A stretch of 47,553 nucleotides of DNA from Phycisphaeraceae bacterium (GTDB lineage Bacteria > Planctomycetota > Phycisphaerae > Phycisphaerales > Phycisphaeraceae). Under the pieces are notes generated by a model that saw only the letters and a program-made list of their open reading frames with translations, was not told the DNA's origin and did not search any database. The stretch covers positions 1 through 47,553 of the forward strand of contig JAFIFY010000123.1 in NCBI GenBank assembly GCA_020831765.1, read 5' to 3'. Shown here piece by piece: positions 25,328-40,282 of this stretch (within the stretch, counting starts at the first letter, position 1; every line of letters begins with the position of its first letter). The position numbers and the translations under genes were made by a program.

Positions 25328-25356
25328 TTGCTCTTGAGAATGGTTATCAATATCAT
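25328..25356 (+). promoter_or_regulatory. Sigma70-type promoter of the phnD-like operon
   Basis: TTGCTC (25328-25333), a 17-base spacer and TATCAT (25351-25356). Transcription would start at about 25363-25364, at or next to the ATG at 25364, which suggests a leaderless mRNA. The Fur-like box fills the spacer. Confidence 0.6.
25335..25349 (+). promoter_or_regulatory. Fur-family operator-like box
   Basis: TGAGAATGGTTATCA matches the 7-1-7 consensus TGATAATnATTATCA at 12 of 14 positions; the overlapping 19-mer from 25336 matches the classical Fur box at 15 of 19. It sits exactly between the -35 and -10 elements, where repressor binding would block polymerase. The actual regulator (Fur, Zur, Mur or PerR) cannot be told from the site. 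Confidence 0.6.
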
Positions 25357-25363
25357 CCTCAGC

Positions 25364-26362
25364 ATGTTCTTCCTGCACCCCTCCAGACACGGGCCGGGCC
25401 TCGCGGTCAGGCGTTCTTCCATTCATCCCCGGGCGCTGTGTTGCCTGCTCACCTTGGCCGCGATGCTGTTTCTCGGGCTTCCCGGCTGCGGGCCGGCGGG
25501 CGAGCGCGGCGATCCGGAAGTCCTGGTCTTCGCCTTCCAGCGGCAGGCTGATCCAGCGCAGATTTCCGAGGCCGCCGGGCGCGTCGCCGAGTTCCTCAGC
25601 GAGCACCTGGGCATGCGGGTCCGCCACGAGGTGCCCAGCAGCTACGCCGCCAGCGTTCAGGGAATGGTCAGCGGGCAGGTCGATGTGGCGTACGTCAGCG
25701 CGGTTCCGTACTTGCTGGCGCGGCAGGATGCGGGCGCCCGGGTGATCCTCGCCGAAGTGCGCACCGATGCCCAGGGCGTGGAGCGGACGGATTACGACTC
25801 GGTTTTCGTGGTCCGACGGGAAAGCGAGCTTGGCTCCGTGGCGGACCTGGTCGAGCAGGCCGGTGAGCTGCGAATGGCCTTCACCAGCAGCACGAGCACT
25901 TCCGGGCACATTTTCCCTTATCGCCGCCTGGTTCAGGAGGGATTGATCGAGGCCGGCGATGATCCCAAACAGCATTTCCGTTCGGCGGTGTTCGCCGGCG
26001 GATACAGCCAGGCATTGCAGCAGGTGCTCCATGACCAGGCCGATGTCGCGGCGGTCAGCTTCTACACCGTCGAGGGACCGACGCGGAACGTTTACCTGCC
26101 CGAAGAGGATCAGCAGCGGCTTCGCGTGCTGGATCGCAATCCCGGTGTCCCCACCCATCTGATCTGCGTCCGCCGGGGCTTGAGTGATGCACTGGTCGAG
26201 CGGATCACCGAAGCGCTGATCCAACTGGCCGAGCATCACCCCGAACTGCTGGCCGAGGTCTATGGTGCCACGCGATTGCAGGAGGTGGATGAATCCCATG
26301 TGGATGCCGCCGCTGAAGCGGTGCGGTTCACCCAGATGGAACTGGGCGGCCTGGTGAGGTGA
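25364..26362 (+). CDS. phnD: PhnD-like ABC transporter substrate-binding lipoprotein
   Basis: Periplasmic binding protein of the phosphate/phosphite/phosphonate (PhnD) family, lipid-anchored. 332 residues from ATG 25364: a basic n-region, hydrophobic core LCCLLTLAAMLFLG and lipobox LPGC, the Cys at 42. The mature domain has LVFAFQRQADPAQISEAAG, VRHEVPSSYAASVQGMVSGQ, DVAYVSAVPYLLARQDAGA, FTSSTSTSGHIFPYRRL and QVLHDQADVAAVSFYT, the order expected of PhnD proteins (aYg-x-y, TSxSTSG, D-A-A). ATG 25340 would add eight residues but lies inside the Fur-like box and upstream of the predicted transcription start; the frame itself opens at 25106. The ATPase-permease fusion follows after 58 bases. Substrate (phosphonate, phosphite, or other) is not determinable here. 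Confidence 0.85.
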   Translation: MFFLHPSRHGPGLAVRRSSIHPRALCCLLTLAAMLFLGLPGCGPAGERGDPEVLVFAFQRQADPAQISEAAGRVAEFLSEHLGMRVRHEVPSSYAASVQGMVSGQVDVAYVSAVPYLLARQDAGARVILAEVRTDAQGVERTDYDSVFVVRRESELGSVADLVEQAGELRMAFTSSTSTSGHIFPYRRLVQEGLIEAGDDPKQHFRSAVFAGGYSQALQQVLHDQADVAAVSFYTVEGPTRNVYLPEEDQQRLRVLDRNPGVPTHLICVRRGLSDALVERITEALIQLAEHHPELLAEVYGATRLQEVDESHVDAAAEAVRFTQMELGGLVR

Positions 26363-26420: not shown

Positions 26421-28031
26421 ATGACCACACTCGCTCTTGGACAGTTCGAAGCCGAGCAACGTCCCGTGGGGGCGATCGAGCGTGCCGATCCTTCGTTCGG
26501 CCCGGTGTTGCTGCGTGCTGAGGGGCTGGGAAAGGTCTATCCCGATGGCACCTGTGCCCTGGCCGAGGTGGCGCTGAGTGTCCGGGCCGGCGAGCGGGTC
26601 GTCATCCTGGGTGCCTCGGGCAGTGGCAAGACAACGCTGCTGGGATGCCTGACCGGTCGCCTGACGCCGACCAGTGGCCGGGTGGAACGGGATGGCGGCA
26701 TTGCGATCATTCACCAGGACTTGCGGCTTGTCCGTCAGCGATCGGCGTTGAGCAATGTGCTGCACGGCACGCTGGCCCGGTGTTCGCTTGCGCGGTCGAT
26801 GCTGGGCTTTGCCCGATCCGAACGGCAACGCGCGCGCGAGCTGCTCGAGCGCGTCGGCCTGGGTGATCGCATGCACTCGCCGGTCAGTCGGCTCTCCGGC
26901 GGTGAGCAGCAGCGGGTCGCGATCGCCCGCGCCCTCATGCAGAATCCGCGCATCCTGCTGGCCGATGAGCCGGTGGCATCGCTGGATGAGTTCAACGCGC
27001 GGCAGATCATGCAACTGCTCGATGAACTCTGTCGCGAGCGGCGGTTGGCACTGGTCAGCGTGTTGCATGACTGCGACCTGGCCGAGTCGTTCAGCGATCG
27101 CATCCTCGGGCTGGACCAGGGGCGGATCGTGTTCGATTCGAGCCTGACGCCGAGTCAGCGCTTTGACTGTCAGGCGTGTCGGCTGATCCGCGAACACGCC
27201 GCGCGGTCCGGTCCGCCGGAGTCGATGGCGCTGGATCGCCCTGCGTGGTTCAAGCCTGCGGTCTTCGCCGGCGTCCTGCTGATCGGATTGGCCATCTATG
27301 TCTGGGCATTCAGCGGCATGGAGATCGACCAGCGGCAATTGCGCGGCGCCGGCCCGGGGCTTGGCCGGTTCATGGCCGACCTGCTGCCCATGACCAGCGC
27401 TCAGTGGGAACGGCTGGCGGCGGTGAAATGGGGCGAACTGGTGGGATCGCTCTTTCAGACGATCCAGATGTCGATCATCGGGACGACCTTCGGGGTCTTA
27501 CTGGCGTGGCCGCTGGCGGCGCTTGCGGCGCGCAATGTCGGGCCGCGCTATCTTCAGAGCCCGATGCGGCTGGTTCTGAACACCATCCGCACGGTCCCAT
27601 CGCTGATCTGGGCGCTGCTTTTTGTCGCGGCGGTCGGACCGGGTGTGCTTGCGGGGGTGATGGCGCTGACGGCTTATTCAATCGGCTATCTGACCAAGTT
27701 CTTCTATGAAGCGTTCGAGGCGGTGGAGCCGGGCGCTCCCGATGCGCTCAAGGAACTGGGCGCCAACGGTCCCAAGCGATTTCTCCATGCCGTCTGGCCC
27801 AGCGCCAGGCCGGCGGTGCTTTCCTCGGGCATGTTCATGCTCGAATACAACGTCCGCGCGGCCAGTGTGCTGGGCATTGTCGGGGCCGGTGGCATCGGCT
27901 ACTACATCGCGCTCTTCGTGGACTGGCGCAATTTCCCGGCCGTGCTGGTGTGCCTGATCATGATCCTGATCGTGGTCGTGGCGCTTGATGCGCTATCCAC
28001 GTACATTCGCGGACGACTTGTGCGCGCCTGA
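26421..28031 (+). CDS. phnC: Fused PhnC-PhnE ABC transporter (ATPase plus permease)
   Basis: 536 residues combining two proteins that are normally separate. Residues about 30-260 are a PhnC-type ATPase: LGASGSGKTTLLGCLTG (Walker A), IIHQDLRLVRQRSALSNVLHG (Q-loop and the PhnC-like segment), RLSGGEQQRVAIARAL (signature), ILLADEPVASLD (Walker B) and VSVLHDCDLA (H-loop). Residues about 275-536 are a PhnE-type permease: one helix AVFAGVLLIGLAIYVWAFSG, then GTTFGVLLAWPLAALAARN, RTVPSLIWALLFVAAVGPG, LTAYSIGYLTKFFYEAFEAV and the EAA-loop stretch DALKELGANGPKRFLHAVWP. The junction (QACRLIREHAARSGPPESM) is short and in one continuous frame. GGA lies eight bases before ATG 26421. With the upstream PhnD-like protein this makes a complete importer from two genes. 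Confidence 0.9.
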   Translation: MTTLALGQFEAEQRPVGAIERADPSFGPVLLRAEGLGKVYPDGTCALAEVALSVRAGERVVILGASGSGKTTLLGCLTGRLTPTSGRVERDGGIAIIHQDLRLVRQRSALSNVLHGTLARCSLARSMLGFARSERQRARELLERVGLGDRMHSPVSRLSGGEQQRVAIARALMQNPRILLADEPVASLDEFNARQIMQLLDELCRERRLALVSVLHDCDLAESFSDRILGLDQGRIVFDSSLTPSQRFDCQACRLIREHAARSGPPESMALDRPAWFKPAVFAGVLLIGLAIYVWAFSGMEIDQRQLRGAGPGLGRFMADLLPMTSAQWERLAAVKWGELVGSLFQTIQMSIIGTTFGVLLAWPLAALAARNVGPRYLQSPMRLVLNTIRTVPSLIWALLFVAAVGPGVLAGVMALTAYSIGYLTKFFYEAFEAVEPGAPDALKELGANGPKRFLHAVWPSARPAVLSSGMFMLEYNVRAASVLGIVGAGGIGYYIALFVDWRNFPAVLVCLIMILIVVVALDALSTYIRGRLVRA

Positions 28032-38575: not shown

Positions 38576-40282
38576 ATGCCGTTGATACTCAATGTCATCA
38601 AGGGGCCGGATCGCGGTCGCCGGTTTGAACTGCCCGATCACGAGCCGCAGCAGATCGGCCGGTCCAGCGAATCGCTGCAACTGCGTGATCACACCATTTC
38701 CCGGCGACACGCCGAACTGACGCCGGACCAGGGCCGCTGGATCATTCGCGACCTTGGCAGCTCCAACGGCACGTTCGTCAACGGCGTCCGTGTCACCGAA
38801 CAGCGGCTTTTGCAGCCAGGCGACCAGGTCCGGACGGGCAACACGATCTTTCTTTTCGGCGCTGAGGTCAGTGACCAGCGCCGACAACGCGTTCGGATGA
38901 CCGGGGATGAGATGGACTCGCATGTCGAGGCGGCCATACCCAGCAACGCCGATTCGATGATCATGGCGGTGCCCGAACCCAGTGAGGCGGCTCAGTTTCA
39001 GCTCCGGGTGATTTACGACCTTCTTTCGGTGATCGGATCAACGCTCGATCGGCAGTTGTTGCTTGAGAAGGCGATGGATGTGATCTTCGAGCATTTCCAG
39101 GCGGACCGTGGCTTCGTCCTGCTTCACGGGCGGTCGAGCCAGCGTCCGGACCCGATGGTGATTCGCCATCGCGTCCAACCCCGGAACCAGGAGGACGGAC
39201 TCATTACGGTCAGCCGGACGATCGTTCAACACGTGCTGAGGCACGGCGAGGGCGTGCTATCCAGCAACGCGATGACCGACCATCGCTTTGCCAGCGGTGA
39301 CAGCGTGGCGCGGTACGGCATCCGTTCGGCGATGTGCGTGCCCATTCGATTCAACGATCAGAGTTTCGGTGTCATCCATGTGGACTCGAAGGTGGCCAAT
39401 TACACCTACACCGAAGACCAGTTGCGGCTGTTGACCGCGATCGGGGCGCAGGTTGGGTTGGCGCTTTTCAACATTCGACTGCACCAGGACCGCTTGCAGA
39501 AGGAGCGTCTGGCGGCGGTGGGCCAGACGGTGGCTTCGCTTTCGCATTCGATTCGCAACATCATCCAGGGGCTTAAGGGTGGCGCTGAGGTGGTGGAATT
39601 GGGACTGCGCAAGGGGGCGATGAACGTGGTCGATAACGGCTGGCAGATCGTGGCCCGTAACCTTGAACGGATCAGCGCCCTGACGATGAACATGCTGGTT
39701 TTCAGCAAGAATCGACAGCCGGAAATGGTGATGACGAATCTGAGCAAGCTGATCGATGAAGTGATCGAGCTGACCAATCGGCAGTTTGAAACACACAAGG
39801 TCGCATTGATCACGGATATCGATGAGGACATGCCGCCGGTGCCGCTGGATCCCAACGGCATTCACCAGGCGGTTTTGAATCTCCTGAACAATGCGCTGGA
39901 GGCGGTCGAGCCCGAGACCGGTGTGGTGACGGTGACCACGCGGTATGAGAACTCACCGGCCGCGGTGGTGATCCAAGTGGCCGACAACGGCCATGGCATC
40001 AGCGAGGAAAGAATGGCAAGCCTGTGGGAGCCGTTCTTTTCGACCAAGGGGCTCCGCGGCACGGGGCTCGGGCTGGTCGTGACGCGAAAGATCGTTGAAG
40101 AGCACGGCGGCCACGTCAAGGTGGAAAGCCGCGTCGAACAGGGCACAACGTTCATCCTTCACATCCCGGTCAGCGATCGGGCGGGCAAGATGGTCGATAC
40201 GCTCTCGGATCAGGAAGGCGGTCATGCCGGATTCGACAGCGCGGTGACCGATGCCCTTTCCATCGAGCCGTTCAGGAAATGA
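38576..40282 (+). CDS. FHA-GAF sensor histidine kinase
   Basis: 568-residue cytosolic kinase. Residues 1-100 are an FHA domain for phosphothreonine binding (GRSSESLQLRD, HTISRRHAEL, DLGSSNGTFVNG). A GAF domain covers about 130-290 (LDRQLLLEKAMDVIFEHF through IHVDSKVANYTYTEDQLRLL). The kinase has the H-box SLSHSIRNIIQG with His324, the N-box NLLNNALEAVEP, DNGHGIS (G1), WEPFFSTKG (F) and GTGLGLVV (G2). The C-terminal tail is short. FHA plus kinase suggests cross-talk with Ser/Thr kinases. ATG 38576 makes the protein start as FHA proteins usually do; ATG 38528 would add 16 unrelated residues. TACAAT at 38499-38504 is a possible -10. No receiver gene adjoins. Confidence 0.92.
   Translation: MPLILNVIKGPDRGRRFELPDHEPQQIGRSSESLQLRDHTISRRHAELTPDQGRWIIRDLGSSNGTFVNGVRVTEQRLLQPGDQVRTGNTIFLFGAEVSDQRRQRVRMTGDEMDSHVEAAIPSNADSMIMAVPEPSEAAQFQLRVIYDLLSVIGSTLDRQLLLEKAMDVIFEHFQADRGFVLLHGRSSQRPDPMVIRHRVQPRNQEDGLITVSRTIVQHVLRHGEGVLSSNAMTDHRFASGDSVARYGIRSAMCVPIRFNDQSFGVIHVDSKVANYTYTEDQLRLLTAIGAQVGLALFNIRLHQDRLQKERLAAVGQTVASLSHSIRNIIQGLKGGAEVVELGLRKGAMNVVDNGWQIVARNLERISALTMNMLVFSKNRQPEMVMTNLSKLIDEVIELTNRQFETHKVALITDIDEDMPPVPLDPNGIHQAVLNLLNNALEAVEPETGVVTVTTRYENSPAAVVIQVADNGHGISEERMASLWEPFFSTKGLRGTGLGLVVTRKIVEEHGGHVKVESRVEQGTTFILHIPVSDRAGKMVDTLSDQEGGHAGFDSAVTDALSIEPFRK

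Follow-up and report, generated by a model that had tools for sequence, protein, structure and literature searches.

How an operon of the phnD type, a type annotated for phosphonate transport, comes to carry a Fur-family operator in its core promoter is the question raised by a locus of a Phycisphaeraceae bacterium (contig JAFIFY010000123.1; the window below means the whole 47,553-nucleotide stretch that was analysed). By comparing this genome with its relatives, with other genomes of the class, and with plasmids, we came to favor, with some confidence, the reading that the locus is an iron-repressed, Fur-controlled operon encoding a ferric-iron ABC importer with a transferrin-like site. This reading draws on the box, its conservation, the class-wide association of such boxes with iron genes, the co-occurrence of the box with the Fur paralogue Fur3, and the residue pattern of the binding protein; repression, iron binding, and transport by the phnD operon are inferred from these sequence data. 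Four alternatives, not all of them mutually exclusive, were weighed against it. The features of the locus are listed in Table 1.

Table 1. Positions of the promoter elements, genes, and pocket codons of the phnD locus in the window
Feature	Position	Strand	Basis or remark
-35-like hexamer TTGCTC	25328-25333	+	3/6 identity to TTGACA
Fur-family operator TTGAGAATGGTTATCAA	25334-25350	+	Sequence, matrix score, like boxes at 5/5 class orthologues
-10-like hexamer TATCAT	25351-25356	+	5/6 identity to TATAAT
phnD start codon ATG	25364-25366	+	Sequence
phnD, PhnD-family lipoprotein-type substrate-binding protein, 332 aa	25364-26362	+	PF12974 (170.6 bits), TIGR01098
Glu131 codon	25754-25756	+	Column of transferrin Glu83
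Tyr144 codon	25793-25795	+	Column of transferrin Tyr95
Tyr214 codon	26003-26005	+	Column of transferrin Tyr188; His in PtxB and E. coli PhnD
His265 codon	26156-26158	+	Column of transferrin His249; Asp in E. coli PhnD, Tyr in PtxB
PhnC-PhnE fusion, 536 aa (ATPase residues 48-186, permease 364-533)	26421-28031	+	Domain and model matches

TTGCTC and TATCAT are 17 bases apart, and the box occupies exactly these bases, its end lying 13 bases before the phnD ATG. Its core, TGAGAATGGTTATCA (25335-25349), agrees at 12 of 14 positions, with two mismatches, with TGATAATNATTATCA, the 7-1-7 consensus of Fur regulons in other bacteria, and both the coordinates and the mismatch count of the initial annotation, which had described a 12/14 box at this spacing, were thus reproduced. 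Within the window, TGATAATNATTATCA was matched four times with up to three mismatches (0.37 expected from shuffles), the phnD box being the best match, and the strict pattern TGANAATNNTTNTCA occurred once in the 4.7-Mb genome, at this box (control 0). A weight matrix was built from 28 sites of other loci and genomes (29 were collected, and L105, with its site inside a gene, was dropped); the collecting pattern had been framed after the phnD boxes were seen, and the matrix is therefore not wholly independent. By this matrix, the phnD box scores 22.4 bits and the runners-up in the window 16.6 and then 5.0. The second-ranked site, at 38582-38598, reads TTGATACTCAATGTCAT.

The phnD gene is rare. 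With the protein of this genome as the query, it was detected in two of 61 relatives (this genome and G033) and in four of 397 genomes of the class (this genome, G374, G292, and G083); in total, orthologues are known from five class genomes and from two Sumerlaeota contigs, which came from a search reaching close relatives only. Within 400 bp upstream, the best site scores 22.4 bits in this genome, 20.4 in each of G033, G374, and G292, and 18.7 in G083, and none of 1000 shuffles (dinucleotide shuffles for this phnD) reached the score at any of the five class orthologues. In G083, the box precedes a pilin-like gene that itself stands ahead of phnD, and the matrix scan found no outstanding site directly upstream of phnD there, nor in the 400 bp upstream of either Sumerlaeota orthologue. 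Conservation of the box at orthologues, which had been proposed as a check on the operator, was thus confirmed for the class and was lacking in the two Sumerlaeota orthologues. These results bear on the notion that the box is a chance resemblance without a role. The -35 hexamer is poor, and a consensus promoter scan gave no promoter on the + strand at phnD, because TTGCTC shares only three of six bases with TTGACA; against this, a box at all five class orthologues, beyond the reach of shuffles at each, and a strict pattern unique in the genome make chance hardly credible. Two further features were seen around the orthologues: one Sumerlaeota contig (L022:3624-7882) has, behind phnD-phnCE, a gene called by eye as that of a heavy-metal P-type ATPase, and in G083 a chlorite-dismutase-like and Rieske protein gene (L055:5101-6255) is divergent from pilin-phnD, approximately 140 bases from the box.

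Judged from promoter geometry alone, transcription would start at the phnD ATG itself. In our reading of the sequence, position 25364 is the sole in-frame ATG, GTG, or TTG from the -10 hexamer to codon 31, and the leader may thus be absent or very short. The leaderless mRNA suggested by the initial annotation therefore stands as a possibility for this genome and does not extend to a conserved state: with the start codons that we chose, the box lies 13 bases from the start here, 66, 80, and 92 bases in three orthologues, and 120 bases in G083 (to the pilin gene leading the operon). The promoter arrangement is shared most clearly with G033, in which TTGACT stands at a like place, 16 bases ahead of a TATCAT that follows the box as it does here, and the -10 region CAATATCAT is common to both genomes.

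The metal to which the box responds is best approached through the other genes that carry it. With at most one mismatch allowed, the class palindrome TTGAGAMTNAKTCTCAA is present in 199 of 396 genomes and its reversed control, by our count, in 11 of 396; at this threshold, the class form is absent from G083. Among 29 class loci that were opened (L105-L133), eight have an iron or Fe-S target, namely four ferric-binding proteins, two cysteine-desulfurase-like proteins, one FeoB, and one TonB receptor. One of the ferric-binding proteins has an iron-binding protein as its best PDB match (E 2.7e-102), and the other three share 55-72% identity with it; both cysteine-desulfurase-like targets were called by eye, and Pfam assigned the one that was run to class-V aminotransferases. 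The remaining targets, called by eye, are pilin-like (three), secreted (four), or barrel-like (two), and 12 loci, including L105, have no assignable target; FeoA was at first suspected at L129-L131 and then left unassigned. In the four other phnD genomes, 32 sites were found, and 20 stretches in addition to the four phnD loci were inspected, several of these 20 sites lying inside genes. Among the genes behind the box in these genomes are feoAB (G033, L085) and, in G374, those of a heme oxygenase (L096) and a cysteine-desulfurase-like protein (L097). Taking all targets together, the gene content indicates that the class box is that of an iron-type regulon. The view of the initial annotation that a metal-type operator of the Fur family sits in the core promoter thus holds, with a like box at all five class orthologues and the same type ahead of iron genes of the class, and the metal would most likely be iron.

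Some targets were unexpected for such a regulon. Pilin-like genes with a prepilin N-methylation motif lie within approximately 210 bases of an iron-type box in seven genomes (L045:3121-3960, L055:6551-7384, L098, L091, L109, L110, and L124), the G083 pilin gene being on the same strand as phnD; the pilin-like protein of the present genome shares 53% identity with that of G199, 45% with that of G007, and 40% with that of G083. Secreted PEP-CTERM-like or dockerin-domain proteins are also encoded behind iron-type boxes (L046:2831-3877, L098:2642-3685, and L089:2487-3644). The idea that the phnD operon functionally replaces FbpA was considered and dropped: FbpA was detected in 30 of 396 genomes, the four phnD genomes of that sample not being among them, which is uninformative at a prevalence of 7.6%, and it was not found in the present genome at E 1e-30.

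A search of the genome itself with TTGAGAATNATTCTCAA, allowing three mismatches, gave eight sites (control 0), none of them at a recognised iron-uptake gene (C83 and C149 being judged without a Pfam run). The targets are phnD, a secreted protein gene whose box directly follows a TTGACA hexamer, much as at phnD, a pilin-like gene with the box 20 bases upstream, and a HAMP-SpoIIE-type phosphatase gene, in which the last base of the box is the A of the ATG (L047:4027-4043). Two more sites were set aside as possible chance matches: that of C29 falls within the first part of the coding sequence of a P-type ATPase, and that of C20 lies where a coding region ends. Since none of these sites is at a recognised iron-uptake gene, the link to iron rests on the other genomes, and our confidence in an iron-repressed operon was lowered.

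Three Fur-family genes were found in this genome, encoding a Zur/Fur-like protein (L001), a PerR-like protein (L002), and Fur3 (L003:1411-1977). Fur3 is the only Fur group detected in all five phnD genomes, including G033, which is 71% complete and showed a single Fur gene. Using a five-sequence profile at E 1e-15, the Fur3 group was detected in 256 of 396 genomes, the weakest matches (approximately 1e-17 to 1e-30) possibly belonging to other Fur lineages. The box is present in 180 of the 256 genomes with Fur3 and in 19 of the 140 without it (odds ratio 15, p 7e-29, uncorrected for kinship), and the link was also found within family and order (129/173 versus 3/15, p 4e-5). The closest PDB matches of the G083 Fur3 protein are ferric regulators. 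The canonical metal ligands of Fur are H87, D89, E108, and H125 in E. coli numbering; in the Fur3 of this genome, these columns hold P, G, L, and S. Of 30 Fur3 loci, eight were not parsed by motif; among the members aligned, the ligands are partly kept in other lineages and partly or wholly lost in many proteins, and in five aligned proteins cysteines 21 and 135 are invariant. Since the Fur3 of this genome lacks the usual ligands, an iron-type regulon may here have a reader that senses its signal in another way.

These data can be set against the alternative that the protein reading the box is not Fur3 but one of its two paralogues, Zur/Fur-like or PerR-like. Three paralogues in one genome, the eroded metal site of Fur3, and the box-carrying genomes without Fur3 speak for it; the presence of Fur3 alone among the groups in every phnD genome and its co-occurrence with the box speak against it. 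The Fur3 gene of this genome also has a site, TTGATAANNNTTATCAA / TTGATAACCCTTATCAA, upstream, and no upstream site within three mismatches was found at the other parsed Fur3 genes (six were not parsed in this check). Autoregulation was consequently dropped as general support for Fur3, leaving a point specific to this genome. On balance, we regard another paralogue as the reader as unlikely, and Fur3 remains the candidate.

The cargo has to be judged from the genes themselves. The phnD product scores 128.6 bits against TIGR01098, the phosphate/phosphite/phosphonate substrate-binding subfamily (cut-off 112.05), and 102.5 bits against TIGR03431, the PhnD equivalog, far below its cut-off of 261.1. 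The permease part of the fusion lies above the cut-off of TIGR01097 for PhnE (232.2 versus 216.7 bits), and the ATPase part below that of TIGR02315 for PhnC (211 versus 266.1 bits). The fusion recurs in G083, where both domains were identified by Pfam (L055), and at L022, L053, L054, and L056, where it was judged from ORF length and sequence only. All 15 PDB matches of phnD (E <=0.001) are named as phosphonate, phosphite, phosphate, or ArrX proteins, and none as an iron-binding protein of the FbpA type.

Transferrin binds ferric iron through a Tyr-Tyr-His ligand set, with Glu83 in a second-shell role, and holds carbonate together with the iron. The columns aligned with phnD are given in what we take to be transferrin ligand numbering (Tyr95, Tyr188, His249, Asp63, and Arg124). 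Tyr144, Tyr214, and His265, together with Glu131, are invariant in all seven phnD orthologues, and the full set is found in none of the other family members compared, eight in number (three PDB and five plasmid proteins; H8, one of the eight, is nearly identical to PtxB). Seven of these eight also have Tyr in the column of Tyr144, so only Tyr214, His265, and Glu131 discriminate. Moreover, Thr174 aligns with transferrin Thr120; Asp63 and Arg124 of transferrin are represented by Ser112 and Ser178. The profile alignment of phnD with the transferrin N-lobe is weak when taken alone (hhalign probability 5%), and transferrin profile scores are 1.5 bits for the type of this genome, 4.9 for the MntR-linked type described below, 13.8 for both together, 7.2 for mixed other members, and 9.4 for a single Fusobacterium protein. 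A predicted phnD structure (pLDDT 87.5, from seven sequences) is closest to PtxB (Z 26.6, 3.8 A over 264 residues) and also matches the ovotransferrin N-lobe (Z 21.9, 3.8 A over 254 residues). A tree that placed transferrin between the clade of this protein and the rest, with or without the five diagnostic columns, was not taken as evidence, because transferrin forms one long branch over 150 columns and the profile scores are mixed.

The pocket bears directly on the alternative that the cargo is a phosphonate or a phosphorus oxyanion and that Fur control reflects a coupling of the iron and phosphorus supplies, as in ferric phosphate. The fold and family are those of PhnD/PtxB, the Ser/Thr oxyanion loop TSxTSxSG is kept in phnD, and a published study (PMC2631029) has proposed that iron and phosphate are coupled in acidophiles. 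On the other hand, the ligand pocket of PtxB/PhnD, as described in another study (PMC5700983), has an oxygen-binding His (Te_PtxB H160, Pm_PhnD H158) and a cap residue (Y208 or D205), and in our alignment these columns are the invariant Tyr214 and His265. The low PhnD equivalog score and the heparinase-like gene next to the operon (the only adjoining gene examined) also argue against a phosphorus cargo, which we consider quite unlikely. Of the two explanations offered by the initial annotation, cross-regulation of iron/zinc and phosphorus is therefore less favored, since the residues found in the pockets of phosphonate and phosphite binders are replaced, and an unusual cargo is borne out and extended by the transferrin-like residues. 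From the sequence comparisons, the cargo of phnD is probably a metal.

Relatives of phnD on plasmids carry the same residues in another regulatory setting. The best of those listed share 28-31% identity with phnD, and the same four residues were found in seven of seven intact MntR-linked relatives; an eighth, H58, is interrupted, its open piece keeping the Tyr of column 214 and the His. In all eight loci read (H1, H2, H3, H58, H59, H64, H69, and H80), the relatives and a cytochrome c peroxidase gene lie downstream of a divergent, adjoining mntR, the manganese regulator gene. This type was found in 42 plasmid records, and the mntR / cytochrome c peroxidase / phnDCE module is exemplified by NZ_CP081057.1 (10096-14884). 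In the three cases examined, with no control, the interval separating mntR from the peroxidase gene contains a palindrome, and mercury or copper genes stand beside the module in some of the loci read.

With mntR beside it, the related clade speaks for manganese no less than for iron, and this favors the alternative that the cargo is manganese or a metal chelate, such as ferric citrate, ferric phosphate or phosphonate, or a siderophore, rather than a ferric ion with a small anion. Two further residues invariant in the seven phnD orthologues, Arg133 and Arg141, could hold an anionic chelator. This alternative is opposed by the iron genes behind the same type of box in the class and by a Tyr-Tyr-His set that is the ferric set of transferrin, and we judge it somewhat unlikely.

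In the favored reading, phnD and the phnC-phnE fusion would form one iron-repressed operon, with a dimer of a Fur-family protein, most likely Fur3, binding the box in the core promoter. When iron is plentiful, the bound dimer would keep RNA polymerase off, and iron shortage would relieve this block. The operon would encode an ABC importer. In its binding protein, the PhnD fold is retained and the oxyanion-specific side chains have apparently been swapped for the transferrin-like Tyr144-Tyr214-His265 set with Glu131 behind. The binding protein would most likely hold ferric iron and a small anion at the end of the TSxTSxSG helix, the anion being held like carbonate in transferrin, and the iron would then be passed to the PhnCE-type pump.

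If operons of this type are metal importers, some of the reported potential for phosphorus scavenging may represent iron or manganese uptake. A small bacterial protein with transferrin-type ligands would also bear on the published claim, put forward in a review, that transferrin and phytotransferrin share an origin among phosphonate-binding periplasmic proteins (PMC7676907), and the importer may be related to the protein from which transferrin descends. A broader proposal is made tentatively: the locus could represent the bacterial side of transferrin origin, in which a PhnD-family ferric Tyr-Tyr-His site homologous to that of transferrin takes phosphate or carbonate as the synergistic anion into what was the phosphonate cradle, and serves an ABC importer that is repressed by iron in one phylum and linked to MntR on plasmids of another, the switch being a Fur lineage without the usual metal site. 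In addition, an iron-type box is defined here across a class, with unexpected pilin-like and dockerin-protein targets. A thin check of open-access titles and the starts of abstracts gave no report of a Fur-controlled PhnD-type importer, of this Fur box or of iron regulation in the class, of an MntR-linked PhnDCE, or of an iron-binding PhnD relative.

Among known systems, PtxB, PhnD, and HtxB (PF12974, TIGR01098) provide the closest structures and are alike in fold, Ser/Thr oxyanion loop, and the presence of PhnC and PhnE in the operon; the protein described here differs in having Tyr214 and His265 for the pocket His and cap residue and an added Glu131, and its operon in having a metal-type operator and a fused PhnC-PhnE. 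The FbpABC and FutABC systems are alike in the proposed job, Fur-controlled ABC import of ferric iron, and the same box stands at FbpA genes in other genomes of the class, whereas the present protein has no FbpA-type match (E 0.001) and the permease is of the PhnE type. Transferrin lobes and phytotransferrin share the fold and the columns of Tyr95, Tyr188, His249, and Glu83; in contrast, the present protein has a single lobe, Ser in place of Asp63 and Arg124, and a place in an ABC importer. Finally, the Fur regulons of other bacteria are alike in the type of box, its position in the core promoter, and targets such as feoAB and the other iron genes of the class, whereas the class has its own form of the box, TTGAGAMTNAKTCTCAA, includes pilin-like and dockerin/PEP-CTERM proteins among its targets, and has in Fur3 a candidate reader that lacks much of the metal site.
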